This document shows positions 903 through 61,149 of a DNA stretch of 64,000 nucleotides, one piece after another. The position numbers and the translations under genes are program-made. Positions within the stretch are counted from its first letter, which is position 1. The number at the start of each line of letters is the position of its first letter. The notes under the pieces are model-generated. The model made no database searches and was not told the origin of the DNA. It saw nothing but the letters and a program-made list of their open reading frames with translations. Source of the stretch: Candidatus Wallbacteria bacterium (lineage in GTDB: Bacteria > Muiribacteriota > JAQTZZ01); the NCBI GenBank assembly GCA_028687545.1, contig JAQTZZ010000005.1, positions 62,001-126,000 on the forward strand, read 5' to 3'.

Positions 903-929
903 TGGCACGGGGATTGTTATTTGATCTGC
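903..929 (+). promoter_or_regulatory. Sigma54-like promoter element upstream of AAA ATPase gene
   Basis: TGGCACG starts at 903. Ten bases after its GG comes GT (916-917) inside ATTGTTA. This matches the -24/-12 layout of sigma54 promoters except for GT instead of GC. The predicted transcript start is near 929, leaving about 30 bases to the ATG at 961. Four other copies of this element precede genes in the window. Confidence 0.5.
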
Positions 930-960
930 TAAAGCAAATCCAAAAATAAACGGGGGGACT

Positions 961-3852
961 ATGAAAAATCTGCAGAATCTTCTGGAAGGCCTGGAGAAAA
1001 ACGATCTGCTCGTTTCGCGGCGGCTGAAGCTCTTTATCGACGCTTCCGGCCTGCCTTTTGCCAGCGACCTGGAATACACAGAGGCCAGGGTGTTTCCCAT
1101 GGAAGTCCTGGAATCATGCCAGAAGTACTGCAATTACATCTACAGGCAGTCTGATGGCGAAGCCACAAATCTGGAAGACTTCACTCCTTTCTGCGAGCAG
1201 CTGGAAGAGATCATTGCGGCCAGGGAAGAGCTGAGCAGCAAAGCCGGGTTTGTGCCCAGGCTTTTCTATTTCTGCGGGAACTCCGGCATTTCAAAACAGG
1301 AGCAGGCCCTGTTTCTCTACGCTGTATTCAAAGCCAGGTCTGGCAGTAGAACATTTTCTCTGCGTGATTTTCTGAATGCCTTCCGCTTCAACCGTGATCT
1401 GCAGGCCAATATCCCTGAGGATTCCAGGCTGTTCAAGCTCTCTGTGATCGAGATCGAGTCAGGGACTGAGAAGAAGTTCCTGGAACAGGTTTACTCGCTT
1501 CATCCTGTCAGCCTGAAGGTCTTTTACGGCCAGAAGCTGTCGGATTCAGAGACAGTGGAAGCAGCCGGCCTGGGCATGCTGGAAGCTATGGGCATTGAAG
1601 GCGGGGATATAGCCAGGGAAGTCCGGGAAATGGGCAATGACGAGGAAAAGCTGTTCCTACCAGGCATTGGCGATGACTCTGCCCCTGAATTCAAACTCTC
1701 GGACCTCACAATCGAGGAAGACGAGAATCCTCTGGAAGACTCCACTGATGAAGACAAGGCGATCAGGAGCGACATCGAATACTTGGAGGAAAGCTTCAAA
1801 TGGCTGCTTTTGAGGATGCAAGCCACCGGCTTTGTGCGCGACATGGCCGAGAACCCGGTCAGCCTCAGGCTCAAGGAAAAGCGTCAGCGCAGGATGATCA
1901 ATTACAGGGTCAGAAAGGGCGGGCATACGCCGAGATTCCAGAAGCTGAGCAGGATGCTGCACCTGTCCCTGTTCGAGCAATACATGATCATGTACTTGGC
2001 TGGGAAATGCATTTCCAGCGAGATCCGTGAAATGGCCAATTCTCTTTACTCTGCCAGGAACACAACTGTGGATGAGATCGGCAGGCTCTTCTGCGGCACT
2101 CTGGCCGAGAAGCTCAGCCTGAAGAAGTATTTCACCAATACCTCTGTCCTGATCAAGAACTCAGTGATCCACTTCGAATCAGACAATGAAGGCTTTTTCG
2201 CAGGCACGATCGCGCTTGACTCAAGAGTGCTTGAATACCTGATGGGCATGGAGATCAAGGTCGAGGACTATGTGGCAGGCAGCAGGCTGTTCGCACCTGA
2301 AGTCAAGCTTGAAAACGTGATCATACCTGATGAGCAGAAGAAAAAGATTCTGGAGATCGTGGAAACATACCCTCGATGGCTGAAAGAGAGAGACAAGTTC
2401 CATTTCAATGAGGTCATCTCATACGGCAAAGCGCTGGTGCTCCTGTTTCACGGCCCGTCAGGAACTGGCAAGACCATGGCCGCATACGGCATCGCCGGCC
2501 GCCTGAAGAAGAAGATGCTGCTTGTGAACTATGCTACCCTCTCCAGCCGTTCCCGCAGGGGCGGAGACAGGAACGAGACCCTGCCTTTCGTGTTCAGGGA
2601 AGCCAGGTTCGCTGATGCAATCCTGTTCATAGACGAGTGTGAGGAACTGATCAGGGACGGAGAATGCAGAAACATGCTGCTGACTGAATTCGAGAAATTC
2701 GAGGGCATTGTGATCATGGCCACGAATCAGCCCAATTCCTTTGACCCGCCCATCCAGCGCCGCATCTCCCTTACCATGAAGTTTGAGCGGCCTTCTGTCT
2801 CCCTGCGCGAGCAGATCTGGAAAGTGCACATGCCTGAAGCCATGAAACTCGCGCCTGACGTTGATTTCAAGGAACTGGCAGGATCGTTCGATCTCACTGG
2901 CGGGCTGATCAAGAACGCGGTGCTGGCAGCCCTGTCCTCTGCTGTGCGTAGGAAAGGGAAGAGCGTGACGCTCAGGATGGAGGATCTCGAATACGGAGCC
3001 AAACTACAGCTTCTGAATCTGATGTCTTTTTCAGATTTCGCCAACAAGCTCACCCCAAGATTCGGGCTGGAAAGCCTGATCTTGGACGGCAGGACAGCGC
3101 GATCTGTGCGCGACCTGATCGGGTCGCTGCGCGTGATCAAGATCATGCGGAATGAATGGGGGTTCGGCGAGCGCCATCCGTTTTCCGGGGGATGCACTGT
3201 CCTGTTTCACGGCCATCCCGGCACAGGCAAGACTCTCAGCGCTGAAGCGATCGGATTCGAACTGGGCAAGCCGCTCAAAGTGGTGAACATGGCGCAGCTC
3301 GTTTCCTGCTGGGTAGGGGAGACCAGCAAGCATATTGAGAGTGTTTTTGCGGATGCTGAAGCCAATGACGCGATCCTGCTCTTTGACGAAGCTGACGCGC
3401 TGTTTTCCTCACGCACTGCCCTGCACAGCGCTACAGACCGTTATGCCAACCAGGATGTGGGAGTGCTGCTGCGGAAGATCGAAACCACCAACCTGATCGT
3501 GATTCTCACCACTAACCTGCTCTTCAACATAGACAAGGCCTTCCTGCGTCGCTTCAATTTTGTGCTGGAATTCCCGCGTCCGGCAGTAGTGGAGCGTGAG
3601 CTGCTCTGGAAGTCACTGATCCCGGAAAAGACGCCACTTGATGCAGGAGTGAATTTCAGGAAGCTCGCCGAGTCCTATGAATTCACTGGCGGTGAGATCA
3701 GGAAAGCTGTGACTTCGGCTGCAGTCAGGGCAGGGCAGAGAGAGGGAGCAACTCGCAGGATCACTGAGAGCGATCTGAGGGAAGCTTCCTGCGAAATCCT
3801 CAATGCCATGATCAAGGAAAATAGGGTGGGTTTTATTGGAGAGGGGGCATAG
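961..3852 (+). CDS. Tandem AAA-family ATPase
   Basis: This 963-residue protein has two AAA ATPase modules after a roughly 450-residue N-terminal region that I do not recognise. Module 1 has Walker A GPSGTGKT near residues 498-505 and Walker B ILFIDECE near 554-561. Module 2 has Walker A GHPGTGKT near 751-758 and Walker B ILLFDEAD near 805-812. Both are followed by arginine-finger-like RR segments (IQRRISL, FLRRFNF). Such double-AAA proteins act as hexameric unfoldases or remodelling machines, but the substrate here is unknown. The start is supported by a GGGGGG stretch a few bases upstream. A sigma54-like element at 903 probably drives it. A short coupled frame remnant follows the stop. Confidence 0.85.
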   Translation: MKNLQNLLEGLEKNDLLVSRRLKLFIDASGLPFASDLEYTEARVFPMEVLESCQKYCNYIYRQSDGEATNLEDFTPFCEQLEEIIAAREELSSKAGFVPRLFYFCGNSGISKQEQALFLYAVFKARSGSRTFSLRDFLNAFRFNRDLQANIPEDSRLFKLSVIEIESGTEKKFLEQVYSLHPVSLKVFYGQKLSDSETVEAAGLGMLEAMGIEGGDIAREVREMGNDEEKLFLPGIGDDSAPEFKLSDLTIEEDENPLEDSTDEDKAIRSDIEYLEESFKWLLLRMQATGFVRDMAENPVSLRLKEKRQRRMINYRVRKGGHTPRFQKLSRMLHLSLFEQYMIMYLAGKCISSEIREMANSLYSARNTTVDEIGRLFCGTLAEKLSLKKYFTNTSVLIKNSVIHFESDNEGFFAGTIALDSRVLEYLMGMEIKVEDYVAGSRLFAPEVKLENVIIPDEQKKKILEIVETYPRWLKERDKFHFNEVISYGKALVLLFHGPSGTGKTMAAYGIAGRLKKKMLLVNYATLSSRSRRGGDRNETLPFVFREARFADAILFIDECEELIRDGECRNMLLTEFEKFEGIVIMATNQPNSFDPPIQRRISLTMKFERPSVSLREQIWKVHMPEAMKLAPDVDFKELAGSFDLTGGLIKNAVLAALSSAVRRKGKSVTLRMEDLEYGAKLQLLNLMSFSDFANKLTPRFGLESLILDGRTARSVRDLIGSLRVIKIMRNEWGFGERHPFSGGCTVLFHGHPGTGKTLSAEAIGFELGKPLKVVNMAQLVSCWVGETSKHIESVFADAEANDAILLFDEADALFSSRTALHSATDRYANQDVGVLLRKIETTNLIVILTTNLLFNIDKAFLRRFNFVLEFPRPAVVERELLWKSLIPEKTPLDAGVNFRKLAESYEFTGGEIRKAVTSAAVRAGQREGATRRITESDLREASCEILNAMIKENRVGFIGEGA

Positions 3853-3853
3853 T

Positions 3854-3898
3854 ATGAAAGACGAAATGTTCGTGCATCTGGAAGACGAGATTAAGTAG
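3854..3898 (+). pseudogene. Fourteen-codon remnant of a coupled gene
   Basis: An ATG one base after the AAA ATPase stop, preceded by a purine-rich GGAGAGGGGG ribosome site, reads MKDEMFVHLEDEIK and then TAG. The placement is typical of a translationally coupled second gene. The reading stops after 14 codons, just where the sequence becomes AT-rich and the PD-(D/E)XK-like gene follows. I infer a truncated gene whose remainder was replaced. A genuine micro-ORF is possible but less likely. Confidence 0.35.
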
Positions 3899-3956
3899 TT
3901 CAGATGTAGAAATATGATAACATATTGTAAATCTAACTATGAGTTATGGAGGATGA

Positions 3957-4601
3957 TTGGACAACCTTAAGACCGAGAAAGATATTGATGCTTTTTATAC
4001 TGGAATCAACGATCTAATTAAAGCATTTCAAAAACATCCATTCGATTTCCTTTATGAGCGCGATCTTCAAGCTTTTTTGTACTATAAATTGTATAAGAAA
4101 TTTCGAGAAGACCGAGTTGAAATTGGTGGTGGATGTTATAAACCGATGGACTATGGTGGTGGAAAATCAATACAAACTGCTCTTGTTCATTGTGAGTATC
4201 CATGTGAAGAGCGCTTTAAAAAAATGGATGTCGTTTTAATTGATAGAAACTATATCATCCATTATGACAAACTAGCCGACGGTTCAGCAAACGATCCTTT
4301 CTGGCGGCAACCTATCCGAGCTGCTGTTGAGTTAAAATATCTTATGCTTGGCGATATTCCTGCTATTAGATTTGGAGAAAAACAAGGTATAAAAAGAGAT
4401 GTTGAGAAACTTAAGAAATATCGTGAGGAAAAATGTATGAATCGGCCATTTCTAGGAATTAGTATTCTTTTCATACAACCTATTAATCAAAAAATTAACT
4501 ATTTCAACATTGGTCAAGAGATTGAGAACAGTAATCATCCGAGTAAAGGATTGTTTGTTTTTTTGGTTAAACCAGATGAATTCGTAAAGTTTGAGCTATG
4601 A
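3957..4601 (+). CDS. Putative PD-(D/E)XK-fold nuclease-like protein, AT-rich
   Basis: This 214-residue protein is recognised only by fold-like motifs: an N-terminal glutamate in YERDLQAFLYYKL, an aspartate in KKMDVVLID and then AAVELKY. This is the E...D...ExK order of PD-(D/E)XK nucleases. A related ERxLQAxLY motif occurs in the protein at 10560-11180, suggesting the same family. An in-frame TGA lies at 3954, so the start must be the TTG at 3957, close behind GGAGGA. ATG frames nearby stop quickly. Base composition is clearly more AT-rich than its neighbours, which suggests recent transfer. The substrate is unknown, and nuclease activity is inference. Confidence 0.6.
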   Translation: MDNLKTEKDIDAFYTGINDLIKAFQKHPFDFLYERDLQAFLYYKLYKKFREDRVEIGGGCYKPMDYGGGKSIQTALVHCEYPCEERFKKMDVVLIDRNYIIHYDKLADGSANDPFWRQPIRAAVELKYLMLGDIPAIRFGEKQGIKRDVEKLKKYREEKCMNRPFLGISILFIQPINQKINYFNIGQEIENSNHPSKGLFVFLVKPDEFVKFEL

Positions 4602-4640
4602 TAAACTAAGTAAAATATTATTCAGTGAGAGTGATTCAGA

Positions 4641-6077
4641 TTAAAGATACTTTTTAAGCGTATTTATCGAAATATCCAGCGCTCTGGCAGTGTGCGTCTG
4701 GTTCTTGTTCATCAGTTCATAAATTTTCCTGATGTATTCGATGGAATGCTGTTCCAGAGTCTGGATGCCGGTGTCGCTTTCTTTGCCGGGCGCGGCGCTG
4801 AAACTCCAGTTATTCCTGATTACGGCATGGATCAGGCGATTATGCAGTTCACGCACATTGCCAGGCCAGTCCAGTGCCATCAGCTTCTGCTTCATGTTTT
4901 TATCAAGCTGTATCAGTTCTCGCTCCCGCATGTCGCAGATACTGCGCAGGATATGATGGGCGATCAGCGGGATGTCTTCCCTGTGTTCCCGAAGGGCAGG
5001 GGTGAGGATGGTCGTTTCTGACAGTCTGTAATATAGATCAGACCTGAATTTTCCTTCATTGCAGGCTCTGGCCAGGTCGCGGTTTGTGGCAGAGATGATG
5101 CGCACGTCCACCTTGAGATCTGCGCTCCCGCCCAGGCGTCGGAAACGCTTGTGATCAAGAACCCGCAAAAGTTTAGGCTGAAGATCGAGTGGCATTTCTC
5201 CGATCTCGTCCAGGAACAGTGTGCCTGTGTCAGCTTCTTCCATCAGCCCGATCCTGCGCTCAGTCGCGCCTGTGAACGAGCCTTTCTCATGCCCGAACAG
5301 CTCGGAATCCAGGAACCCTGCCGTGAAATTGGCGCAATTGACAGCTATGAAAGGCCTGCATTTTCGTTTGCTGGCCCTGTGAAGTGCCAGAGCCACGGTT
5401 TCCTTTCCAGTACCTGTTTCGCCATGAATGAGCACTGAGCAGAGGCTGTCCATGCCAATGTCCGCAATGCTGTCCTTGAGATCCTTCATCACCTGAGCCC
5501 TGCCCAGCAGATGATTGCTGGAGAATCCCTTGCCAGCCTTGACTGCCTTGTCGTCTGCGTCCAGATCCGAAATGCCTGCCAGCTTACTGATAAAAGCAGG
5601 GTATACATCATAGTCCCGCAGGTTGAAAACCCTGAATGCGGCGTCCTCGTAAAGATTCGCCCATCCTTGATCCTTATCGAGGCAGCAGAGTATGGATTTG
5701 TCAGCGTCTTTTTTCAGATAATCAGCAGTGAGTTCAGAAATTTCCTTTGAAAAATCCTCCCTGAACTCCAGGTTTTTCAGTTTAAGCCCCTTGATTTCAG
5801 ACAAGTCGAGCTTGCAGTTCAGCCAGAGAATTGTGCAGCCTGAGCTGGATAGCTTCCGCAGGGCTGTGGACATTTCCTCGAATCTCTCATAATAGCCAAG
5901 GCCGAGTATCACGATCTGCGCGCCTTTATCGTGACTGAGAAAATCCAGCTTGTCAGGAAGCTTGCCAGCGCTGCTGATCACAAGATTAACTTCAGGGTGA
6001 GCTTTCAAGTACAAAGCAGCGGCTGTAGCGCCTTCAGAGCTGAGCATGCTGATCAGGTATGTTTTGATGTTTTTCAT
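4641..6077 (-). CDS. Sigma54-dependent activator with DHH-like N-terminal domain
   Basis: This 478-residue NtrC-class enhancer-binding protein activates sigma54 RNA polymerase by ATP hydrolysis. The central AAA domain has Walker A GETGTGKE (near 219-226), the sigma54-contact loop GSFTGA (near 265-270, normally GAFTGA) and Walker [10 protein letters not shown]. The C-terminus ends in a Fis-type helix-turn-helix ([16 protein letters not shown]). The N-terminal 180 residues are not a receiver domain. They follow the pattern of DHH phosphoesterases ([30 protein letters not shown]), with the catalytic Asp and His positions replaced. I infer a ligand-sensing, catalytically dead DHH domain. No strong ribosome site precedes the ATG. 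It may control the sigma54-like elements seen in this window. Confidence 0.88.
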
Positions 6078-6154
6078 AAGGAAAGACTACCAAACCGCAA
6101 AGATAATTGTCAAATATTGATTAGGAATGATCAAAAATTAATGAAAGAAACCAA

Positions 6155-6562
6155 TCAGGCTTTCATGACAGTCTTTTTGAATTGAGCAGCTGAAATGATT
6201 TTTGTTCCAGTGAATTTCTCGATGCTTCTAAGGTCTTTGTCGCCTGTAATGAGATATTCTGCTCCAGTTTGGGCGGCACATGCCAGGAAGCAGGTATCCT
6301 TAGGATCTCTTGGAAAATTAAGATTATTATCAGGTACTTCAACAGTTACAAGTTCACGGAAAATATTCTTCCAGTCTGCTACCGTATCAGCGGAAAGACC
6401 AAACTTCTTTCTGCCAAGTACTTCATTGTATTCTTTGAGGATTTCCTTTGAAGCGACCCATTCAATTTCTGGATTCTGAATGATGAAAGAGATTACTTCT
6501 TCAGGAATTCTATCTCTGATGATTGCTGAAATCAGTATGTTTGTATCAACGATTACCTGCAT
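6155..6562 (-). CDS. PIN-domain toxin (VapC-like ribonuclease)
   Basis: This is a 135-residue PIN-domain protein of the type II toxin-antitoxin class. The first acidic residue is in MQVIVDTNILISAI, and a later acidic cluster is in DPKDTCFLACAAQ and YLITGDKDL, as expected for the metal-binding site of a PIN ribonuclease. I chose the ATG at 6562 because the conserved VDTN strand begins there and AGGA lies just upstream. A longer frame from 6595 adds a non-conserved leader. The start overlaps the antitoxin stop by 17 bases, which fits coupled translation. It resembles the single-PIN toxins of COG1569. Confidence 0.82.
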   Translation of the reverse strand: MQVIVDTNILISAIIRDRIPEEVISFIIQNPEIEWVASKEILKEYNEVLGRKKFGLSADTVADWKNIFRELVTVEVPDNNLNFPRDPKDTCFLACAAQTGAEYLITGDKDLRSIEKFTGTKIISAAQFKKTVMKA

Positions 6563-6794
6563 TTTTCCTGCGAACTGCTTTGACTTCTCCGGCAATAACC
6601 TTCTCGCTGATCGTGGTCCTGATCTCTTTCCTGGTTTTCGAAACCAGACCCTTGAATTTCTTCAGCAGATTCTGCTTCTTTTCTTCCTCTGCGATGATCA
6701 GAACTTCGACTTTCTGGCCTGGAGTAAAAGGAAGATCCTTCAGGATCAGACTCCCAGCATTTTTTATGGTGATATACTTTCGGTAAGCAAGCAT
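6546..6794 (-). CDS. Antitoxin paired with PIN toxin
   Basis: This 82-residue protein lies directly upstream of the PIN toxin and overlaps it. Its first half (KYITIKNAGSLILKDLPF, then PGQKVEVLII) resembles an AbrB/MazE-type swapped-hairpin DNA-binding fold. The basic second half (KKFKGLVSKTRKEIRTTI and onward) would wrap the toxin. GGAGGG seven bases before the ATG fixes the start. A TATAAT -10 box on the minus strand at 6814-6819 is a likely promoter. It lies next to the divergent sigma54-like element at 6827, so the two promoters may interfere with each other. Antitoxin identity rests on context and size. Confidence 0.7.
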   Translation of the reverse strand: MLAYRKYITIKNAGSLILKDLPFTPGQKVEVLIIAEEEKKQNLLKKFKGLVSKTRKEIRTTISEKVIAGEVKAVRRKNAGNR

Positions 6795-6826
6795 CTGCCC
6801 TCCTCATGAATTAATTATAGCTGAAA

Positions 6827-6853
6827 TGGCACGGAAAGTGTTAATTAATTTTC
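6827..6853 (+). promoter_or_regulatory. Sigma54-like promoter element upstream of DUF2779 operon
   Basis: TGGCACG starts at 6827, and GT (6840-6841) follows GG at ten-base spacing, in GTGTTAATTAATTTTC. The region downstream of the GT resembles the copies at 12686, 12489 and 61149. The predicted start is near 6853, about 80 bases before the ATG at 6935. The element sits between the toxin-antitoxin promoter and the nuclease operon. Confidence 0.5.
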
Positions 6854-6934
6854 AACGGGTAACTTACGTTTACTTTAGAGAAAATTAAAGACATAATACA
6901 ACAGAAATTCTCTGAGTAATGATCGGAGGTTATG

Positions 6935-8416
6935 ATGCAGGACTCGAATCGGAAAAAAGGGTATGGTCTCTCCAAATCCAAGTACACTGCCTGGCTGCAG
7001 TGCCACAAAAGGCTCTGGCTGCAGGTGCATAGACCAGACCTGCTGGAACAAGCGGAAATGCCTGCAGAGGTTTTTGTCGGATACCAGATAGGCGACCTAG
7101 CCAGGGGCCTTTTCCCTGGCGGAGCGCTGGTGGAATTCGACGGACAGGACATCAGCCGGCAGCTTGCTCTGACTCAGGAACTGCTTGCGAGCAAAACGCC
7201 CGTGATTTACGAAGCTGCCTTTGATCATGAGGGCCTGTTCTGCAAGACTGACCTGCTGGTCAGGAAAAGGGATGGATTCGAGCTTTATGAGGTTAAGGCT
7301 TCAGCCAGTGTCAAGGATTATCACTATAATGACCTGGCAGTGCAGGTGCATATCCTGCGCGGAGCGGGTCTGAAGTTGAAGAAAGCCTTTCTCATGCACC
7401 TGAACAATCAGTACATCAGGCAGGGTGAGTTGGAGCTGGACAAGCTCTTCAACCCTGTGAATCTGACTGATGAACTCGGAGCTAATCTGGAAAAAATAAG
7501 CGCAGAGGCCGAAAAAGCGAGGGAAGCGCTTGCTGCCGGCATGCCTGAAATCGGGATCGGCTCTCACTGCACTGATCCATACAAATGCGAGTTCTTCGAT
7601 TTCTGCAGAGAGCATCTGCCTGAATACAATGTATTCGGCCTGTGCGGTTCGAATGCTCTCAAAGCCAGGCTTTACAAGCAGGGAATCCTGAAATTGGAGG
7701 AAGTTCCGCTCAATGAACTGAGCAGGAATCAGCAGATCCAGGTGGAATGCCATATCTCAAAAGACAGGCATCTTGAGCCTGAAAATATCAAAGATTTTCT
7801 GAATACACTGAGTTACCCGCTCTGTTTCCTTGATTTCGAGACAGTGCAGAATGCCATACCTCTCTATGACGGAGACTGGCCATATCAGCAGAACCCGTTT
7901 CAATACTCGCTCCATATCCTGGAACGCGAAGGCGGCAAGCTGATTCACAAGGAATTTCTGGCTGAGCATGGCAAAGACCCAAAGCCTGAATTCCTGAAAA
8001 ACCTGCTCAGGGACCTGCCGGAAAAAGGCTGTGTGCTGGCATACAACAGTTCGTTTGAAGCAACCCGGCTCAGAGAACTTGCTGAAATCTATCCAACCCA
8101 CAAAGTCAGGATCGAAAAAATCATTGACTCCATGATCAATCTGGCCACTCCATTCCAGAAACGCTGGGCATATGACTGGAAGCAGTGCGGCACATACTCC
8201 ATCAAGGAAGTGCTGCCTGCCTTTATTCCAGACATGAGTTACGACAATCTCGAAATCGGCAATGGCGACCAGGCCATGAAAGCCTATGCGGATCTGCCTG
8301 GCATGACTCCGGAAGAAGTCACCAGTACCAGGAAAGCGCTGCTTGTTTACTGCGGACAGGATACGCTGGCTATGGTGAAGCTGTGGGAGAAGTTGAGGGA
8401 GATGGCTGAGGGATGA
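6935..8416 (+). CDS. DUF2779 protein: RecB/Cas4-like nuclease fused to exonuclease-like domain
   Basis: This 493-residue protein starts with a RecB-type nuclease signature: KSKYTAWLQCHKRLW near residues 13-28, and a catalytic-type ELYEVKA near 117-122. A cysteine cluster (HCTDPYKCEFFDFC, near 212-225) probably completes an iron-sulfur site, as in Cas4/AddB-type nucleases. The C-terminal half is the DUF2779 region, with an RNase H/DEDD-like FLDFET near 298 and a late YCGQDTLAMVKLW. GGAGG is best spaced to the second of two adjacent ATGs, so I chose 6935. It begins a three-gene operon with the genes at 8420 and 9604. A DNA-processing or defence role is plausible but unproven. Confidence 0.82.
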   Translation: MQDSNRKKGYGLSKSKYTAWLQCHKRLWLQVHRPDLLEQAEMPAEVFVGYQIGDLARGLFPGGALVEFDGQDISRQLALTQELLASKTPVIYEAAFDHEGLFCKTDLLVRKRDGFELYEVKASASVKDYHYNDLAVQVHILRGAGLKLKKAFLMHLNNQYIRQGELELDKLFNPVNLTDELGANLEKISAEAEKAREALAAGMPEIGIGSHCTDPYKCEFFDFCREHLPEYNVFGLCGSNALKARLYKQGILKLEEVPLNELSRNQQIQVECHISKDRHLEPENIKDFLNTLSYPLCFLDFETVQNAIPLYDGDWPYQQNPFQYSLHILEREGGKLIHKEFLAEHGKDPKPEFLKNLLRDLPEKGCVLAYNSSFEATRLRELAEIYPTHKVRIEKIIDSMINLATPFQKRWAYDWKQCGTYSIKEVLPAFIPDMSYDNLEIGNGDQAMKAYADLPGMTPEEVTSTRKALLVYCGQDTLAMVKLWEKLREMAEG

Positions 8417-8419
8417 GAA

Positions 8420-9607
8420 ATGAACAAAAAGCCTGAACTGAACATTTTCGATTCTCTATTCGGCTACCGGCCCAGACCGGATCGTAAGCCCATGGAGGAT
8501 TTTCTGACTCAGGCTTTTGCTTATGTTCTGGGAAAGAATAAGGCTATTCTGAACTCATATCTGCAAATGATTCATGGCAAACCTCAGATTCAGTCTGAGG
8601 ACTTTGAAATTATCACACAACAATCTTTAGACACCTGCAGAATTGATCTGATGATCTATTGGACACATTCAGGAAACCGGCACTGCCTGTTTGTGGAGCA
8701 CAAAACGGGGAGCAGCCCTTGGGAAGACTGCAATGATCAAGGCGATCCGATAAATCAGATACAGCATTACTGCGATGTTCTAAAAAAACAGAATTCGCTG
8801 GCTGGAGATCAGAAATGCCATGTTGCGCTGATCAGCCCTTTGCTTTTAAAGGATTATTCCAGAGCAGCAATCAACAGACCGGAATATCTCGGTAATTTCA
8901 CATGGGGTAATTTGGCAGGGCTGCTTGAAAAATTTTCGTCTGAAAACGAAATCATAGCAGAACTTCTTGAATTTTTAAGGAGGCAGGGTATGACATCTGA
9001 AAACTTCACTCTTTCCGAACTTGCCAGCATCGGTATGTACATAACCTATCTCGACAAGCTGAATTCGTTGAACCTGCGAATCAGCGAAACTTTTACCGGG
9101 CCACTGGAGGCTTTTGCCAGGGAAAAAGGGCTTGAATACAAAATGCTCTGGGGTGAACTCATTTACAGTTTCCATTATGGAGTTCTGCTTTTTTCCGGAC
9201 CAGACCCGAATGCTTCACCAGTCTGGCTGATCTGCGGGATTTCCAACAGGAACAAGAGCTGTGTTGATGATCAGGGCTATCCGGCTTTAATGCTGAAAGA
9301 CCAGGCAATACCTGACGTTGAATGTGGGGTGATAGTGGGGGAAGTGGATTTCAACAAGCTGAACGAAATGCTCGGCAAAGCTGAATTGAGCGGATTCGAG
9401 CAAATCGATGGAACGAAATATAAAAATCCGTTCTACGCAATACTCGCAAGAAAACCCTTAAGCGATTTCCTCTGCTCCGATCACCATGATACGGGCATAC
9501 TGGAATTTCTTGGTAAAGGGATCGCTCAAATTCTGGCTGAAAATTCCGTGTTCCGTAAGATTGTCGATGAATTCCGGCAGACAGAAAACACTGCGGAGAA
9601 AACATGA
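8420..9607 (+). CDS. PD-(D/E)XK nuclease superfamily protein
   Basis: The 395-residue protein begins three bases after the DUF2779 gene stop, so the two are an operon. Its N-terminal third carries a PD-(D/E)XK arrangement: CRIDLMIYW (Asp near residue 74), LFVEHKTG (E-x-K near 92) and INQIQHY (a QxxxY-type motif), as in RecB-like nucleases. The C-terminal two thirds have no recognised motif and may bind the substrate or a partner. The next gene overlaps its end by four bases (ATGA). Proteins of this kind occur in restriction and phage-defence loci and also as isolated hypothetical genes, so the role here is inferred only from company. Confidence 0.65.
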   Translation: MNKKPELNIFDSLFGYRPRPDRKPMEDFLTQAFAYVLGKNKAILNSYLQMIHGKPQIQSEDFEIITQQSLDTCRIDLMIYWTHSGNRHCLFVEHKTGSSPWEDCNDQGDPINQIQHYCDVLKKQNSLAGDQKCHVALISPLLLKDYSRAAINRPEYLGNFTWGNLAGLLEKFSSENEIIAELLEFLRRQGMTSENFTLSELASIGMYITYLDKLNSLNLRISETFTGPLEAFAREKGLEYKMLWGELIYSFHYGVLLFSGPDPNASPVWLICGISNRNKSCVDDQGYPALMLKDQAIPDVECGVIVGEVDFNKLNEMLGKAELSGFEQIDGTKYKNPFYAILARKPLSDFLCSDHHDTGILEFLGKGIAQILAENSVFRKIVDEFRQTENTAEKT

Positions 9608-10209
9608 GCAAGGAGATTCCAGATCCCTTTCTCTGCCGTGAACTCGGCCAGATACTGGACGACAGGCCACCAGACTGTCCTTGGCATTGCCACAGATGCA
9701 AACATGGAAACTTGAAGAAGCAGTGGAAAAGGTACAAGAAACCTTTCAAGCCCTATACCAAAGAAGAATTTGCAGGTTTCAACAGGCTGAACAGGAAGCT
9801 GACTGATCTGGAATTTGCGATCCAGAAGGAAGTGATCAGGCTGAGGGCTTTGGTGAACAGGCGGATCAGAAGCAAAGACCGCTTCCTGAGCGACCATGAA
9901 ATTGAAGTGGAGATCGGCTTCATATTGCGCAAGTCAGACCCGGACTACGATAAGCTTGAAGGTGATCCCTGTTACTATCTGAGAAGCAACAGTGGATTTG
10001 CTTTCACTAACAAGGTGTGTCTTTATTGTGACGGCAATGACTGGAGCGAAAGCTATGGAATTGACAGTTCCTTTCCGCTCCTGGACAAAAAATGCTGCTA
10101 CATGTTCCACGAACTGTGCGACGATTTTCATGACCGCCGGGTTTTGCTCAGGTTCGGGGAGATCTGGACTGATGTGAAGCTGGTGCTGCAGAATTTCAGG
10201 AGGATATGA
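9604..10209 (+). CDS. Cysteine-rich hypothetical protein, third gene of nuclease operon
   Basis: This 201-residue protein shares a four-base ATGA overlap with the upstream nuclease gene, so translation is coupled. I do not recognise the family. It has an N-terminal CPWHCHRCKHG cluster, a basic helical or coiled-coil segment rich in Lys and Arg (residues about 38-95), then VCLYCDGNDW and KKCCYMFHELC. The two cysteine/histidine clusters look like zinc-binding sites, suggesting nucleic-acid binding. No signal peptide or membrane segment is visible. Being the last gene of an operon with two nuclease-fold proteins, it could be a specificity or accessory subunit. Confidence 0.65.
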   Translation: MSKEIPDPFLCRELGQILDDRPPDCPWHCHRCKHGNLKKQWKRYKKPFKPYTKEEFAGFNRLNRKLTDLEFAIQKEVIRLRALVNRRIRSKDRFLSDHEIEVEIGFILRKSDPDYDKLEGDPCYYLRSNSGFAFTNKVCLYCDGNDWSESYGIDSSFPLLDKKCCYMFHELCDDFHDRRVLLRFGEIWTDVKLVLQNFRRI

Positions 10210-10260
10210 AGTTTCAATTGTGGATACAGTAAAGAGTTTTTATGTTGATTTTCGAACTTG

Positions 10261-12171: not shown

Positions 12172-12462
12172 TCAAAAGAACCCCATCTTTTTATACTGCT
12201 CCGCATCCGCCGGAAATGGATCAACACCCTCCTTCCACCCTTCTTCCGCCAGATCAGACATGATGTGCCGCCTGGCTGGTGATTCTGCTTCAGGGCCAAA
12301 AATAATCACTGCTGTCCTTATCCCGGCTTCATGATGCCTGAATCTGCGGTGGCGGAAGCCGACTCCAGGCACACCGGCGAATTCGTCCAGCCACTGATGC
12401 AGCTCAGTCCAGGGCTTGCCGAACAGGCGGAGTGATTCTTGGCAGTGTTCGTTGAGTTTCAT
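12172..12462 (-). CDS. DUF6915-like hypothetical protein
   Basis: This 96-residue protein has the pattern of a widespread small family of unknown function (DUF6915-like): EHCQESLRLFGKPW, then LHQWLDEFAG, GFRHRRFRHHEAGI and ARRHIMSDL. The family start coincides with the ATG at 12462, yet no ribosome site is present. A sigma54-like element upstream would place the transcript start one base before the ATG, so the message may be leaderless. The conserved His/Arg-rich core suggests binding of metal or nucleic acid, but nothing is established. Members are found on phage and chromosomal accessory regions. Confidence 0.65.
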   Translation of the reverse strand: MKLNEHCQESLRLFGKPWTELHQWLDEFAGVPGVGFRHRRFRHHEAGIRTAVIIFGPEAESPARRHIMSDLAEEGWKEGVDPFPADAEQYKKMGFF

Positions 12463-12489
12463 GAAAATGAATTAACAAGAAGCGTGCCA
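12463..12489 (-). promoter_or_regulatory. Sigma54-like promoter element, leaderless geometry
   Basis: On the minus strand TGGCACG begins at 12489 and GT (12476-12475) follows GG at ten-base spacing within CTTGTTAATTCATTTTC. The predicted start at about 12463 is directly beside the ATG at 12462. The same geometry is seen at 61149-61123. Confidence 0.5.
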
Positions 12490-12536: not shown

Positions 12537-12556
12537 ATTCCTGCTTACGCAGGAAT
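12537..12556. repeat. Short palindromic intergenic repeat
   Basis: ATTCCTGC and GCAGGAAT are perfect inverted arms around TTAC, followed by GACGG. This is the same type as the 'GATTCCTGC...GCAGGAATGAC' intergenic hairpins scattered in many bacterial genomes. Only one copy is in this window. Confidence 0.5.
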
Positions 12557-12685
12557 GACGGATTAGCGAATATGATGTCGTAATTATTGAAAATATTGAT
12601 TACTGCTGATCTAAAATTGATGATCAGTTCAAGTGTCAGCTACTTGTCTTACCCGAAAACCTTAGATTTCAGCCTGCCTTCTTGT

Positions 12686-12712
12686 TGGCACGGGAAGTGT
12701 TAATTCATTCTC
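12686..12712 (+). promoter_or_regulatory. Sigma54-like promoter element upstream of pseudokinase/TPR gene
   Basis: TGGCACG starts at 12686, with GT (12699-12700) at ten-base spacing from GG, in AGTGTTAATTCATTCTC. The predicted start is near 12712, followed by GGAGG at 12729-12733 and the ATG at 12739. It closely resembles the copy at 6827. Confidence 0.5.
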
Positions 12713-51979: not shown

Positions 51980-51992
51980 GTTTCCTCCCCAG

Positions 51993-52974: not shown

Positions 52975-53094
52975 CGGATGTTTAAAGCAGCACAGGAATC
53001 GAGTCAAATTCTAAGCAGTATAAATGACAGAACTTGATGCATCCTGTATTCTGATAATCATCTGAAACTTTTCCAGCGTGGGAGAGGAGAGAAA

Positions 53095-53412
53095 ATGGCG
53101 TCAGAAAAAGATTTTGTCGAATTCATTGTTGAGCAAATGGAAGGCGCGGGAGCAGTCTCCTGTAAAAAGATGTTCGGGGAATACGGGATTTACTGCTCCG
53201 GCAAAATGGTAGCCCTGGTCTGCGATGATCGTCTGTTTGTCAAGCCGACCAAAAGCGGAAGGGATTTTATCGGCGATCTGACCGAGGTTCCTCCATACCC
53301 AGGTGCAAAACCCTGTTTTCTGATCGAAGACAGATTTGAAGACAGGGAATGGATCAGCGAGCTGATCAGGATTACTGCCCTGGAACTCCCGGAACCGGCG
53401 AGGAAAAAGTAA
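53095..53412 (+). CDS. TfoX N-terminal domain protein
   Basis: This 105-residue protein has the TfoX/Sxy N-terminal domain: VEFIVEQMEGAGAVSCKKMF, then GEYGIYCSGKMVALVCDDRL and YPGAKPCFLIEDRFEDRE. In Haemophilus TfoX induces competence, but stand-alone N-terminal domains are widespread and probably not competence specific. GGAGAG before the ATG supports the start. It lies ten bases upstream of a nucleoside phosphorylase-like gene, likely co-transcribed. Confidence 0.85.
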   Translation: MASEKDFVEFIVEQMEGAGAVSCKKMFGEYGIYCSGKMVALVCDDRLFVKPTKSGRDFIGDLTEVPPYPGAKPCFLIEDRFEDREWISELIRITALELPEPARKK

Positions 53413-53422
53413 GAGGTTGATT

Positions 53423-54139: not shown

Positions 54140-54190
54140 TAAACTCGACTTGATAAGGCTGAACGGACTGGTTTCAGGACCAGCTGGAGC

Positions 54191-55396: not shown

Positions 55397-55421
55397 CAGT
55401 TGCTGCAATCCCGGAATGGAG

Positions 55422-56381: not shown

Positions 56382-56393
56382 ATTTCCTCCACC

Positions 56394-56528
56394 ATGTTCT
56401 AGATTAATGATAACAAATCCTTGTCAAAGACTCATGATGAAATTGTAAAATAATTGTAAAATCTGAAATGACATTACGGTCTCTATGAATTTACATGAAA
56501 TTTACTTTTTTTTCACCGGATTTTTACA
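56394..56528. promoter_or_regulatory. Divergent TolB promoter region with TTTACA repeats on both strands
   Basis: Minus strand: TTTACA at 56455-56460 and 56444-56449 (11-bp period), facing the TolB-like gene at 55422. This side is similar over 70 bases to the S41 upstream region. Plus strand: TTTACA at 56490-56495, TTTACT at 56501-56506 and TTTACA at 56523-56528, facing the TolB-like gene at 56574. Such paired direct repeats fit binding of an OmpR/PhoP-type dimer. Confidence 0.55.
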
Positions 56529-56573
56529 GTTGCAGGTTATCCTGAAACTATAGTTGAAAATTGAGGAGGCAAT

Positions 56574-57530
56574 ATGAAAAAAGCAGCACATCTGATTTGT
56601 TCGCTTTTACTGCTCTTTTTCTGCACATCCGGTAGCGCTGCGGAAGCAGATCCAGGACAAGCTATGGAGCGCGGCCAGGGGAAAATCGTATTCACGACTT
56701 ATTTCACCATCGGTGAAAACTGCTTCAACATCTGCACTGTAAACGAAGACGGCAGCTGCCTGACCAGGCTGCACAAGGTTGGAGACGAAGGGACTCCCAG
56801 CATTTCCCCGGACGGCACAAAGATAATATATATGTGCAGTAAAGAAAACGACTGGACTGAAAGCGATATTTATCAGATGAATATGGACGGCAGCGATGTC
56901 CAGAGACTGACAGAACTGCACGACTGGACCATTTCCTACCCTCGCTATTTCCCGGACGGGAAGAAACTGGTTTTCGGCCGCAGGGTAGCCTGCAACTATG
57001 ATCTTTACACTCTGGATCTCTCGTGCGGCTCGATCCAGCGGATTACCCAGACCGGCGAAGAGATAAGAGAAATGTGTGCAATACCATCGCCTGATGGGAA
57101 AAAACTGCTGTGCAGTGCTTATTTACTGTATGAAAATATAAATACGCTTTTTTTGATGAATGCAGACGGCAGCGACTGCCGCAGAATCGTTCCCGAGGGC
57201 AGTGATGCGATTGGCATGTCATTCTCTCCTGACGGCAAGAAAATCGCTTACTGTATGGATAATCCTCATCCCAAACAGATCGAGCTGCTTGATCTTTCCA
57301 CAGGTGTGACGAGCGAAGTGGTGAGAATCAAAGATTCTACAAATTATGGTGAAACTTCATTTACCAGGGACGGCAGACGCCTGATCATCAATGCCTGTGA
57401 TGACGCCTTCCCGTCGCTTCCGGCTGCGGCAGGAGGTGGTTCTCAGCTCTTTTCCGTAAGTCTGGACGGAAAAGATGTGAAAAGAATCACTACCGATACT
57501 TACGAGAAACTCTGGCCAATGGCATTCTGA
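56574..57530 (+). CDS. Secreted TolB-like beta-propeller protein, copy 2
   Basis: This 318-residue protein is divergent to copy 1 and closely similar, with a signal peptide (HLICSLLLLFFCTSGSAAEA) and repeated blades (SISPDGTKIIYMCSK, YFPDGKKLVFGRRV, IPSPDGKKLLCSAYL, SFSPDGKKIAYCMD). GAGGAGG before the ATG fixes the start. The two genes are an inverted duplication sharing a promoter region. Downstream, instead of a complete transporter gene, only a fragment of the MFS gene remains. It may have taken over a distinct role from copy 1. Confidence 0.82.
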   Translation: MKKAAHLICSLLLLFFCTSGSAAEADPGQAMERGQGKIVFTTYFTIGENCFNICTVNEDGSCLTRLHKVGDEGTPSISPDGTKIIYMCSKENDWTESDIYQMNMDGSDVQRLTELHDWTISYPRYFPDGKKLVFGRRVACNYDLYTLDLSCGSIQRITQTGEEIREMCAIPSPDGKKLLCSAYLLYENINTLFLMNADGSDCRRIVPEGSDAIGMSFSPDGKKIAYCMDNPHPKQIELLDLSTGVTSEVVRIKDSTNYGETSFTRDGRRLIINACDDAFPSLPAAAGGGSQLFSVSLDGKDVKRITTDTYEKLWPMAF

Positions 57531-57559
57531 AACCGCAGCAGCACAGGGACTGCGTCACC

Positions 57560-57640
57560 CGTCCGCTGCCGGCGGGTACTGCTTTACGTGAAATACTTCT
57601 CCGGTATTCTCCGGAAGGCCAGATAGAAGAAGAAAAAACC
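57560..57640 (-). pseudogene. Remnant of a duplicated MFS transporter gene (3' end)
   Basis: On the minus strand this reads FFFFYLAFRRIPEKYFT and then TAA, matching the MFS transporter C-terminus FLFFYLAFRRIPEKYFT (54191-55396) at about three quarters of bases. A one-base loss shifts the remainder. The similarity stops abruptly near 57640 and near 57560. It is in the same orientation as the intact gene, so it flanks the TolB pair as a direct repeat. It indicates a duplication followed by deletion. Confidence 0.75.
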
Positions 57641-57719
57641 AATCACTCTGTACGCATCATTTCAATCCCTTCTTTCTCTTTTCCAGCCGGGCATGTATCA
57701 TAGCAACTGAGGATAAATC

Positions 57720-58292
57720 ATGAAAAGGATCTGCGTATATTGCGGCTCGAATTCAGGATCTGCATCATACATGGATGCAGCCCGCAGGCTCGGCCTGGAA
57801 CTTGCCGGGCGCAAGCTGGAGCTTGTTTACGGCGGTGCGGCAGCCGGCCTGATGGGAGAAGTTGCCGACTCTGTGATGAAAGCCGGCGGCAAGGCCATAG
57901 GCGTGATCCCGAAGCTTTTTTCAGACAGGCTGTCCCACAGGGGACTGACTGAACTTCACGTGGTGGAGACTATGCACGAGCGCAAGACGAAAATGTTCGA
58001 CCTGGCTGACGGTTTCATCGCTCTGCCCGGAGGGTTCGGCACTCTGGAAGAGATCTTCGAGGTAGTCACCTGGGCTCAGCTCGGAATCAACCGCAAGCCC
58101 TGCGGCCTTCTCAATGTGGACGGATATTTCGACCATCTGCTGCTCTTCCTGGACAATGCAGCAGCCTGCGGATTCATCAGAGAGACCCACAGAAACATGC
58201 TGCTTACTACCGATGACCCGGCCCAGATGCTAGCAATGATGGAATCCTACCGCATGACTGACACAGGTAAATGGGTGGAGACTCGGGTTTGA
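57720..58292 (+). CDS. LOG-family protein (nucleotide phosphoribohydrolase)
   Basis: This 190-residue protein has the Rossmann-type LOG/YvdD family signature: CVYCGSNSGSASYM at the start and the catalytic PGGFGTLEEIFEVVTW near 100-115. The family hydrolyses nucleoside 5'-monophosphates, releasing bases such as cytokinin, and is widely used for nucleotide quality control. The plausible start is at ATG 57720, preceded by GAGGA. It appears monocistronic. Confidence 0.9.
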   Translation: MKRICVYCGSNSGSASYMDAARRLGLELAGRKLELVYGGAAAGLMGEVADSVMKAGGKAIGVIPKLFSDRLSHRGLTELHVVETMHERKTKMFDLADGFIALPGGFGTLEEIFEVVTWAQLGINRKPCGLLNVDGYFDHLLLFLDNAAACGFIRETHRNMLLTTDDPAQMLAMMESYRMTDTGKWVETRV

Positions 58293-58390
58293 TGCTTCCA
58301 GGACTCGAAACAAAAGCAGCGGATTGTAACTTTGATTTTCAATCAATCCGGATATATTTTACTTAGGTAAATGCAATTCCAGGGGGAAAA

Positions 58391-59251
58391 ATGAGTATCA
58401 TGCGGAAATTTCTGGTTCTGTCTGGCCTGATTTTATGGGCGTCTTTTGCCGGAGCTGCGCAGTTTCAGCAGCATCAATACAGAGTCGGTGAAAAGTTTTT
58501 CTATGCTTTCGAAGATACGGAATACAATTATCAGGTCTCTGTAAACGATAAGAACGAGCGGTCTATGGAACTGTCCGAAATCCAGGAGATCAGGACAGAT
58601 CTCAAGCTCTCCGTGATCAGGGAAAAATCGGGAAAAACTGTCAGAAAAATGGAGATCTACAACACGCAGTACAAGGAAGGCTCCACGGAAAATTACAATC
58701 AGGCTGAATACAGGCTTCTGACCACGCTGATCAAAAATTTCCCCAAGGTTTTCAGCTATACTTACGAAGTGGAAGCCGCGAAAAACAGGGTGATCTCTGA
58801 TTTCGCGAAGTTCTGCGCTCCTTACATGAACTGCTCTGTGGGTAATTTTTTCTATTTCAAAACCCTGGACATCCACACCTTCGAATCAGTGATCGAGCGG
58901 ATGGCCGGATCTCTTGAACCGGAAAAATTCAGGAAGATCGAATCGTCGAACCCTAAGATCAGCGGAGGCAGCTTTTTCAACAACAGCCCAGCAGTCACAT
59001 ACAACAGGACTGAAACCATGAACGGCGTGCCCTGTGCGGTTTTCAAATACTCCACAGTGGGAAACAGGTATGTCTCAGAGCAGTTCGGAGTGAATCTTAT
59101 TACAGATTATGGAGCCAATATTTATGTCGCGTTGGAAGGAAAACTGGCTGGAATGCTGATATTCGGCGAACTGCACGAAACAGTTACCGGCCTCAATCAG
59201 GGCAAGCCCGCTTATGTAGTGAGAATGCTCACGATGCGAATGAGACATTGA
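58391..59251 (+). CDS. Secreted hypothetical protein
   Basis: This 286-residue protein has a signal peptide (KFLVLSGLILWASFAGAAQ) and an unrecognised beta-rich mature domain. Its features include YRVGEKFFYAFEDTEYNY, then repeated Lys/Glu and a terminal region VRMLTMRMRH. Two cysteines near SDFAKFCAPYMNCSVG could form a disulfide. GGGGG before the ATG fixes the start. No neighbours on the same strand. No function is assigned. Confidence 0.7.
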   Translation: MSIMRKFLVLSGLILWASFAGAAQFQQHQYRVGEKFFYAFEDTEYNYQVSVNDKNERSMELSEIQEIRTDLKLSVIREKSGKTVRKMEIYNTQYKEGSTENYNQAEYRLLTTLIKNFPKVFSYTYEVEAAKNRVISDFAKFCAPYMNCSVGNFFYFKTLDIHTFESVIERMAGSLEPEKFRKIESSNPKISGGSFFNNSPAVTYNRTETMNGVPCAVFKYSTVGNRYVSEQFGVNLITDYGANIYVALEGKLAGMLIFGELHETVTGLNQGKPAYVVRMLTMRMRH

Positions 59252-59302
59252 TTTTTTCGTCAACTTGATTACTTTGGGTGTAAGGCTTGCAGCGTGGTTA
59301 TG

Positions 59303-59347
59303 GTCACAAATTGTGACTTCCAATTTTCCCGTCTGCAGCAAATGCTC
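59303..59347. repeat. ORF6N gene fragment, left copy
   Basis: A 45-bp stretch around the palindrome GTCACAA-A-TTGTGAC followed by TTCCAATTTTC and CTGCAGCAAATGCTC is about 87% identical to 60532-60576. Read on the minus strand it encodes NWKSQFVT, the conserved core of ORF6N-domain proteins. It lies left of the CPBP protease gene. Confidence 0.7.
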
Positions 59348-59366
59348 AAAATGTGGAGCAACTGGA

Positions 59367-59390
59367 AATTGTCAAGATACTGTCTCTAAT
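59367..59390. repeat. Dispersed AATTGTCAAGA repeat, copy 1
   Basis: AATTGTCAAGATACTGTC and six further bases match 62628-62650 (AATTGTCAAGACACGGTC) at most positions. Such short stretches often flank transposed segments. No gene is affected. Confidence 0.4.
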
Positions 59391-59425
59391 CTCCAATTGC
59401 CTCAGAATATTAGAAGGAATGGAGT

Positions 59426-60280
59426 TCACGGCTTTATTCCCAAAATCAGACACGAGAACAGACATGCGAACATTATGAACGTTGCGACTGAATTGTTGAC
59501 TACATGCAGAATCAGAGGCGGGACCAGGGAATTATAACGGTACCTAAGATATGTCAGCATAATGCCCATTGCTGCCATATTGACAATAGGATAGACGTTC
59601 GGATAATGCTGCGGGACATGGATCAGGCCAAACAGGAGCCCCACGATGACAATCGTTTTTCCGGGTGAAAACAGCTTGATCATCGCCTGATACAGGATGC
59701 CTCTGAATAAAAACTCCTCTACCATAGGGACGAGCAATGGTACCAGGAAGAGAAGTGTGGCAAATGCCAGCCTGGAAGTCAGGCGTTCAGTCCAGTATTC
59801 ATCAATAAAGGTATTTTCCGATTGGTACGGCAGAAAAAATCCGAGGGCTATATTTGACAGCGCCCAGACAATGCCGGTCAGCACAGTACTTTTGATTACA
59901 TCGCTGCTCACGGGATACAGGGCAAAACTTTCGATAAAGGTTTTATTGTATTTCACGCAGATCCTGCGGTAGGCAATCCAGAGAATGAAAAAATAACTCG
60001 GATATTGCTTAACAAACTCTGCAAAGGTGACATTCAAGTATTTGATATAATGACTAAGTATAGACATCAAAATCATAAAAATGAATGAATACAGAATAAT
60101 CATGAAAATATCGCTGAATGTGACTGAATCCGGTGCTTCCGCAGCTTTATTCCTGACTTCTGGGATTACAGACTTTTTTTCCTGCTTGATAATGTAATCA
60201 GGACAGAATTTATTTTCACAGTTTCTGCAGAATTCAGCAAGACCTAAATTAACTTCACCGCATGGGCACTTCCAGATCAT
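59426..60280 (-). CDS. CPBP-family (CAAX-like) intramembrane metalloprotease with zinc ribbon
   Basis: This 284-residue protein has an N-terminal zinc ribbon (CPCGEVNLGLAEFCRNC) and eight membrane segments. The CPBP motifs are PMVEEFLFRGILY (EExxxR), GLLFGLIHV (FxxxH) and PPLILHVVNNS (HxxxN), as in Abi/CAAX-type proteases. Members modify prenylated or bacteriocin-related proteins, or act on antisigma factors. The gene is bordered on both sides by direct repeats that look like ORF6N gene fragments, so it may have been inserted with them. No strong ribosome site is visible. Confidence 0.87.
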   Translation of the reverse strand: MIWKCPCGEVNLGLAEFCRNCENKFCPDYIIKQEKKSVIPEVRNKAAEAPDSVTFSDIFMIILYSFIFMILMSILSHYIKYLNVTFAEFVKQYPSYFFILWIAYRRICVKYNKTFIESFALYPVSSDVIKSTVLTGIVWALSNIALGFFLPYQSENTFIDEYWTERLTSRLAFATLLFLVPLLVPMVEEFLFRGILYQAMIKLFSPGKTIVIVGLLFGLIHVPQHYPNVYPIVNMAAMGIMLTYLRYRYNSLVPPLILHVVNNSVATFIMFACLFSCLILGIKP

Positions 60281-60600
60281 CTCTTACCCTCAATTCATTT
60301 TCAATTGACGCGGATTCAAAAAAAGCCCGCCTGAGTGCCTGTCTTAGATCATTTCATGGATGTGTTTCCCGGTTATATCTGAGACTGCCTGCAACAGGAG
60401 CCATATGGAAATTTTAAATTTCCGCCTCACGATTCACCTTTATTTCTTATCCAAAGTTATGATCCTGATATTTTAATTCGAAATTCCTGTTTTTACAATG
60501 AATATCAGACTGTATACTCTTGGATTTGGATATCACAGTTTGTGACTTCCAATTTTCCTGACTGCAGCAAATGCTCCGGATGCTGCACCGAAAACCTGCA
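60281..60600. other. Gene-poor 320-bp interval with ORF6N remnant
   Basis: No credible gene. It holds a perfect palindrome GGAAATT-TTA-AATTTCC near 60404-60420, an AT-rich stretch and, at 60532-60576, the right copy of the 45-bp ORF6N-derived repeat. On the minus strand the latter reads QENWKSQTVISKSKS, a decayed ORF6N core with the conserved NWKSQ. Confidence 0.6.
60532..60576. repeat. ORF6N gene fragment, right copy
   Basis: This is the second copy of the 45-bp element (left copy at 59303-59347). The conserved core NWKSQ is also found in the intact ORF6N gene at 60601-61122 (bases 60893-60919). The two fragments are in the same orientation and enclose the CPBP protease gene. Confidence 0.7.
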
Positions 60601-61122
60601 TTACGGAGTAAATCCAATCTTGCGCCGGCTGCCAGGCGGTTGAGCAAGAAGTTTCTTGATGGCATCGAACACTACCATGAACTGCCGGTCATATTTCTGC
60701 TCCAGCAGTTCGATTTGTTCCCTGAGCTCTTTATGGGTAGACATGATTTCCCTCAATCTGACAAAAGTCCTCACAATGGAAATATTGACCTGGATGGCTC
60801 TACTGCTCATCAGTACACTCGACAGCATGGCAATACCGAGCTCAGTGAAAGCAAAAGGACATTTACGCAATCCCAATCTCAACGATTTGGAAGTCACAAA
60901 TTGTGACTTCCAATTTTTCATTTCATCATTGTTAAGCTGAAACATGAAATCTGCAGGAAATCGCTCGATATTTCTATGGACAGCCTGGTTCAATACTTTA
61001 GTCTTAACGCCATACAGCATTGCCAGGTCCCGGTCTAGCAATACTTTCTTTCCGCGGATCAGGAAAATCCTTTGCTCAAGGAATGCTTCCGGAATTTCGA
61101 CTGCAATGTTTTCATTGTTCAT
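60601..61122 (-). CDS. ORF6N-domain (phage-type) DNA-binding protein
   Basis: This 173-residue protein has the ORF6N domain: VLLDRDLAMLYGVKTKVLN, then NIERFPADFMFQLNNDEMKNW and CPFAFTELGIAMLSSVL. It is common on phages, plasmids and in genomic accessory sites, and binds DNA as a regulator. The C-terminal half is a helical segment (LREIMSTHKELREQIELLEQ). The start at 61122 lacks a ribosome site. The sigma54-like element at 61149 would place the transcript start one base before the ATG. Fragments of related genes lie downstream. Confidence 0.87.
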   Translation of the reverse strand: MNNENIAVEIPEAFLEQRIFLIRGKKVLLDRDLAMLYGVKTKVLNQAVHRNIERFPADFMFQLNNDEMKNWKSQFVTSKSLRLGLRKCPFAFTELGIAMLSSVLMSSRAIQVNISIVRTFVRLREIMSTHKELREQIELLEQKYDRQFMVVFDAIKKLLAQPPGSRRKIGFTP

Positions 61123-61149
61123 AAAAATGGATTAACAATTTCCATGCCA
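61123..61149 (-). promoter_or_regulatory. Sigma54-like promoter element, leaderless geometry
   Basis: On the minus strand TGGCATG begins at 61149 and GT (61136-61135) follows GG at ten-base spacing, in AATTGTTAATCCATTTTT. The predicted start at about 61123 is directly beside the ORF6N ATG at 61122. Geometry and downstream sequence are almost identical to the copy at 12489-12463. Confidence 0.5.

Follow-up and report, generated by a model that had tools for sequence, protein, structure and literature searches.

Sigma54-type promoters with GT at -12 in a Candidatus Wallbacteria genome and a putative palindrome-marked recombination/competence gene set

We examined a promoter-like element, TGGCAYG-N4-KTGTTA, in a 64,000-nucleotide stretch of DNA (the window; positions 62,001 to 126,000 of contig JAQTZZ010000005.1) from a Candidatus Wallbacteria bacterium (assembly GCA_028687545.1). 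Six copies of this strict pattern were identified in the window, compared with 0.008 expected from base composition (Table 1). Five were present exactly where the original prediction had placed them; the sixth, divergent from the copy at 903, had been missed. Analysis of the source genome (G000, 4.54 Mb) revealed 10 copies compared with 0.57 expected, and no match was detected for the reversed pattern used as a control; these genome counts and the control ruled out a chance origin. The copies were clustered rather than evenly scattered, with 7 of the 10 on the contig that contains the window (C5). When two mismatches were allowed, 6 matches were seen in the window compared with 2.9 expected, and the pattern was uninformative at that looseness. 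The claim that the element points into genes was confirmed genome-wide, as all 10 copies faced a gene start. The ATG was 11-12 nt past the 16-base core in five copies and approximately 25-90 nt away in the remainder, mostly with a GGAGG-type ribosome site. A near-duplicate of the 61133-61149 element was found just beyond the window (C5:126521-126537).

Table 1. Window coordinates of the putative promoters, genes and repeats described in the text
Feature	Position	Strand	Remarks
Putative sigma54-type promoter TGGCATGGGGATTGTTA	708-724	-	Sixth copy; divergent from 903; into open reading frame (ORF) 280-696 (-), ATG at about +3
Putative sigma54-type promoter TGGCACGGGGATTGTTA	903-919	+	AAA ATPase gene 961-3852; ATG after 42 nt, GGGGGA ribosome site
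Putative sigma54-type promoter TGGCACGGAAAGTGTTA	6827-6843	+	DUF2779 operon; ATG 6932 with GGAGG
Putative sigma54-type promoter TGGCACGCTTCTTGTTA	12473-12489	-	DUF6915 gene 12172-12462 (-); ATG at about +2, predicted leaderless
Putative sigma54-type promoter TGGCACGGGAAGTGTTA	12686-12702	+	TPR protein gene; ATG probably 12739 behind GGAGG
Putative sigma54-type promoter TGGCATGGAAATTGTTA	61133-61149	-	ORF6N gene 60601-61122 (-); ATG at about +2
Sigma54 enhancer-binding activator	4641-6077	-	Between promoters 903 and 6827
AAA ATPase with winged-helix domain	961-3852	+	PF22977 and PF00004; PADLOC IetA-like
DUF2779 / Cas4-like nuclease-family protein	6932-8416	+	Heads run with 8420-9607 and 9604-10209
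PIN-domain gene and adjacent small ORF resembling AbrB-type antitoxin	6155-6807	-	Between activator gene and DUF2779 operon
Perfect palindrome TTAATCAT-AAT-ATGATTAA (= TTAATCATAATATGATTAA)	820-838		Between divergent 724 (-) and 903 (+)
Imperfect inverted repeat CTGATC...GATCAG	12606-12627		Between divergent 12489 (-) and 12686 (+)
Inverted repeat ATTCCTGCTTACGCAGGAATGACGG, common intergenic type	12540-12566		Between divergent promoters 12489 and 12686

The canonical sigma54 -24/-12 promoter reads TGGCACG-N4-TTGCW. All six window copies contained GG at -24 within TGGCAYG, and in their -12 half, (T/G)TGTTA, the canonical spacing was kept and C was replaced by T. The source genome encodes one RpoN (a single PF04552 protein, L021) and 13 strong PF00158 sigma54 activators, one of them inside the window. 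The window and genome elements are best read from these features as sigma54 -24/-12 promoters with GT at -13/-12. They share with other sigma54 promoters the TGGCAYG block, the N4 spacer, the TTG, the distance to the gene start, the presence of candidate activator palindromes upstream and the accompanying RpoN and activators. They differ in that most sites in the family have T instead of C at -12 and in the predicted leaderless state of several genes. For the five genes with an ATG 11-12 nt past the core, a normal sigma54 transcript would have its start codon at +2 or +3, i.e. these genes would be leaderless; the DUF6915 start is credible because this methionine is also where the Pfam match starts. 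The conserved downstream sequence TTAATTCATTTTC described previously was present at 6827, 12489, 12686 and 61149, i.e. in four of the five copies first noted, and was absent at 903 and also at 724.

The original prediction regarded GT at -12 as the mark of a sigma54-like promoter class. The sigma54 assignment held, given the match, the orientation, the single RpoN and the approximately 13 activators, whereas the novelty of the class did not: the sigma54 promoters of Salmonella pspA, pspG and hydN naturally carry TTGT or GTGT at -12 (PMC3844500), and both types coexist in the source genome, where a few GC-type sites precede ordinary sigma54-like targets (an HtrA/DegP-like protease and an HlyD-like protein). 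GT is a minority form in Salmonella; the unusual part is its majority status in the family of the source genome. We compared the source genome with a member of a sister genus in the same family (G001, the sister genome; the two RecA proteins are 76% identical) and with a phylum mate from another family (G002). The GT type made up 26/35 sites in these three genomes compared with 19/102 in seven other phylum genomes (P = 5e-9; hand-counted among the matches listed, with sites that are not mutually independent). This dominance might reflect a new class of promoter recognized by a changed RpoN or by a different sigma factor, and the RpoN box does read ARRTVTKYRE in both family members compared with ARRTVAKYR in the other families compared. 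However, the altered DNA-binding helix that had been envisaged was not borne out, as the box differs only by T for A and the helix-turn-helix (HTH) that reads the -12 region (HESTVSRAVNNKYM) is not obviously aberrant. With GT a known natural variant, GC and GT side by side in the same genomes, and canonical spacing and -24 sequence, we regard this explanation as very improbable. In G002, the only other strict -24/-12 matches (L170 and L171) were also of the GT type and preceded grpE-dnaK and a MoxR/VWA operon, and a GT promoter was found ahead of an Hsp20 gene (L051) in the source genome; sigma54 may serve heat-shock genes too in these lineages.

The upstream region of sigma54 elements in the sister genome contained a second motif, the palindrome GTCTCA-N3-TGAGAC. 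In a survey of 37 phylum genomes, the sister genome had 23 exact copies, the source genome and G002 had none, and two further genomes had a single copy each. The 23 sites formed 15 clusters, in many of which two sites followed each other in tandem at 20-21 bp, and a sigma54 element (at least 11/13 matches) was located 20-120 bp away in 12 of the 15 clusters compared with approximately 4% of random positions. The gaps between palindrome and promoter were mostly 52, 66, 77 or 85 bp, with an overall range of 50-105 bp upstream. Sites 50-105 bp upstream of -24 are in the usual enhancer range. In the source genome, four of six one-mismatch sites were positioned 50-85 bp from a sigma54 element, ahead of a second ORF6N gene (ORF6N-2), DUF1016, recA and a RecA-like/comEC operon, and a second degraded site was found 21 bp away at three of these four. 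The other two one-mismatch palindromes (on C7 and C36) were intragenic and were taken as background. At recA the gap was 85 bp in both genera, though the surrounding sequence had diverged. The ORF6N genes of the sister genome are multicopy (L072, L035, L036, L039 and L040); most carry one and the same cassette of palindrome and promoter, as though gene and promoter had been copied together, and several of these cassettes contain a conserved CAACAGCGCGATT-like sequence between palindrome and promoter.

Two other roles for the palindrome were considered. Several sites stand ahead of ORF6N and RAYT genes within cassettes that have been duplicated, as would be expected if the palindromes were repetitive extragenic palindrome (REP)-like repeats spread by RAYT transposases, with promoter proximity incidental. 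This is improbable in our view, since the sites are kept in two genera at recA (85-bp gap) and at the RecA-like/comEC operon (50-53-bp gaps) and almost none are free-standing. Alternatively, the palindrome could be the operator of an HTH_3-S24 (CI/LexA-like) repressor rather than an activator site: a tandem arrangement of 15-bp palindromes, spaced by roughly two turns of the helix, would fit such a repressor, radC of the sister genome is flanked by HTH_3-S24 genes, and the relative in the source genome keeps its S24 residues intact. The position of the sites in the enhancer range, the tie of nearly all of them to sigma54 elements, and the absence of a convincing site ahead of the genes for the repressors make an operator unlikely.

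The genes marked by the palindrome pointed to recombination and DNA uptake. Both the palindrome and a sigma54 element were present at recA in the source and sister genomes, and radC carried the palindrome in the sister genome. An operon with conserved gene order (short hydrophobic ORF, RecA-like, ComEC, Rex) was marked in both; ComEC was identified by a PF03772 match in the sister genome and by a similar ORF at the same position in the source genome, where the operon has a GC-type sigma54 element, and the RecA-like assignment is from a weak profile match. Further marked members encode ORF6N, KilA-N, BRO-N and DUF1016 proteins and RAYT/Y1 transposases. No sigma54 element was identified at recA of phylum mates. 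In streptococci, comEC, radC and recA together are core, co-regulated competence genes (PMC5069739), and in Vibrio comEC is controlled by QstR and radC has been discussed (PMC6237807). The marking of comEC, radC and recA in the sister genome and of recA and the comEC operon in the source genome resembles these competence regulons (streptococcal SigX, Vibrio TfoX/QstR); the difference is the predicted use here of sigma54 and a palindrome, with no established part for a pheromone, SigX, TfoX or QstR. We infer that the genes with this palindrome form a recombination/competence regulon run by sigma54.

The explanation that we consider probable overall is that sigma54 GT promoters run several gene sets, one of which, of the recombination/competence type, is palindrome-marked. 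RpoN-polymerase would sit closed on a -24/-12 promoter with TTGTTA instead of TTGC(A/T), and an AAA+ enhancer-binding activator on a palindrome 50-140 bp upstream would open it with ATP. One set, with tandem GTCTCA-N3-TGAGAC, would comprise recA, RecA-like/comEC/rex, radC (in the sister genome) and mobile or host-interaction genes (ORF6N, KilA-N, BRO-N, RAYT-type and DUF1016); the window genes (AAA ATPase, DUF2779 operon, DUF6915 and TPR) would answer to other activators, most likely the local one at 4641-6077. The promoter match and orientation, single RpoN, activators, palindrome-promoter geometry and gene contents are directly observed; we infer which activator would bind which palindrome, and any induction. 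Several results weigh against this explanation. No GTCTCA palindrome was found at the six window promoters in a position weight matrix scan (P = 0.28-0.87), so that the promoter is what would join the window copies to the recA/comEC set. The palindrome was not found in G002, nor upstream of the genes for the activator family described below; no radC site was found in the source genome and no umuDC site in either the source or the sister genome; and the 52-bp-gap sites of the sister genome lie mostly in duplicated ORF6N/RAYT cassettes and are non-independent. The palindrome found at recA and comEC is missing from the window copies, and the element-bearing genes are therefore probably several regulons rather than one. 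The accessory regulon originally proposed was too narrow for the genome, where recA, Hsp20 and the GC-type RecA-like/comEC operon are included.

The usual controllers of recA are LexA or other non-sigma54 regulators. The LexA domain (PF01726) was not detected in the source genome and gave a marginal match (22.9 bits) in the sister genome, compared with matches above the cut-off in 16 of 18 other phylum genomes, and no LexA-type boxes were found at recA using simple patterns. These data, together with the sites at recA, radC and the RecA-like gene, raise the alternative of an SOS-like DNA-damage regulon in which sigma54 and an activator replaced LexA at recA. Oligonucleotide-sensing sigma54 activators can indeed answer DNA damage, as shown by RtcR (PMC7790460, PMC9879122). 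In contrast, umuDC is outside the set and comEC and radC indicate competence instead; HTH_3-S24 proteins, present in both genomes and in two cases adjoining radC in the sister genome, could act as non-canonical LexA; and two other phylum genomes without LexA also lack this system. The set resembles the LexA SOS regulon in including recA, and differs from it in that canonical LexA was undetected, the sites are upstream of the promoter and not over it, and umuDC is excluded. We consider a pure SOS replacement rather unlikely and rank a competence/recombination regulon above it.

The sigma54 activator encoded in the window contains a degenerate DHH-fold sensor (about residues 1-185), a sigma54 AAA+ domain with GSFTGA (PF00158, 1e-64) and a C-terminal Fis-type HTH. 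The sensor domain had no match by sequence in Pfam, PDB sequences or plasmids. A structure model was built with AlphaFold2 for the sensor of a homologue (C47), with the window protein in the alignment, and gave a predicted local distance difference test score (pLDDT) of 85 and a predicted template modelling score (pTM) of 0.84; the full-length activator model was poor (pLDDT 58). Fold searches with the sensor model returned RecJ (5x4j, E = 3e-4) as the best PDB match, together with several viral DHH proteins (lowest E = 5.6e-5); TM-scores were only 0.4-0.6. At the positions taken as equivalent, the window protein has SSEG, LGLG and NCK instead of the catalytic DxDG, D and DHH residues. Thus, the sensor is predicted to have a DHH (RecJ/NrnB-like) fold and to be catalytically dead, and we do not class it as an enzyme.

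Of the 40 phylum genomes surveyed, only three contained dead-DHH activators: the source genome (three), the sister genome (two) and G002 (one). These are the genomes in which the GT type dominates among the matches listed. In the sister genome, a homologue is located 187 bp from a GT promoter. In G002, the activator gene is stop-interrupted in the assembly. Divergent from it, a sigma54-type promoter, TTGGCATGAAATTTGTA, reads into a small ORF and a second recA. The gene placements in the window, the sister genome and G002 suggest that dead-DHH activators serve GT promoters. RtcR, a sigma54 activator of RNA repair, has a CARF sensor that binds tRNA fragments (PMC7790460). The dead-DHH activators share with it a sensor of a nucleic-acid-binding type, an arrangement divergent from the putative target and a possible link to genotoxic stress (PMC7790460, PMC9879122); they differ in their DHH-like sensor without catalytic residues and in their neighbours, which are recA2, a nuclease-family operon or an AAA ATPase gene and not rtcBA. 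By this analogy, it is plausible that the DHH-like domain senses nucleic-acid fragments. Two probably orthologous dead-DHH activators, L174 (1874-3394 on C3 of the source genome) and L221 (349-1869 on C312 of the sister genome), have a degraded GAFTGA loop and lie beside large surface-protein genes; they are probably no longer sigma54 activators.

A more tentative step, possible though doubtful, is that dead-DHH sigma54 activators took over recA, radC and comEC, placing recombination, uptake and linked mobile or defence-like genes under nucleic-acid signals in place of LexA. Among the papers searched, none was found to describe control of recA by sigma54 together with an activator site upstream. 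If true, recombination and DNA uptake would be under activator-driven, ATP-gated control, an unnamed family of DHH-sensor activators would be recognized, and the survival of this lineage in the absence of canonical LexA would have an explanation. Candidate defence genes (AAA/DUF2779, ORF6N and DUF1016) would likewise be placed behind a tightly off sigma54 switch. The surprising part lies outside the window, in the putative sigma54/enhancer set at recA, radC and comEC, with the dead-DHH family as candidate controller.

Within the window, the genes behind the element are best regarded as separate accessory genes under sigma54 control, probably served by the local activator. In PADLOC, the AAA, ORF6N and DUF1016 proteins are associated with defence families, either known ones or candidates, and in the sister genome a DUF2779 gene and a homologue of the winged-helix AAA protein are adjacent behind one GT promoter. 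The repeats at 820-838 and 12606-12627 are candidate activator sites by position; the palindromes between the divergent promoter pairs are not common to both pairs. Finally, a different palindrome, GTCACA-N3-TGTGAC, was found three times near the ORF6N gene (59303-59317, 60532-60546 and 60893-60907), a match count reached in 0/100 shuffles; these copies are possibly CRP/FNR-type or repeat sites.

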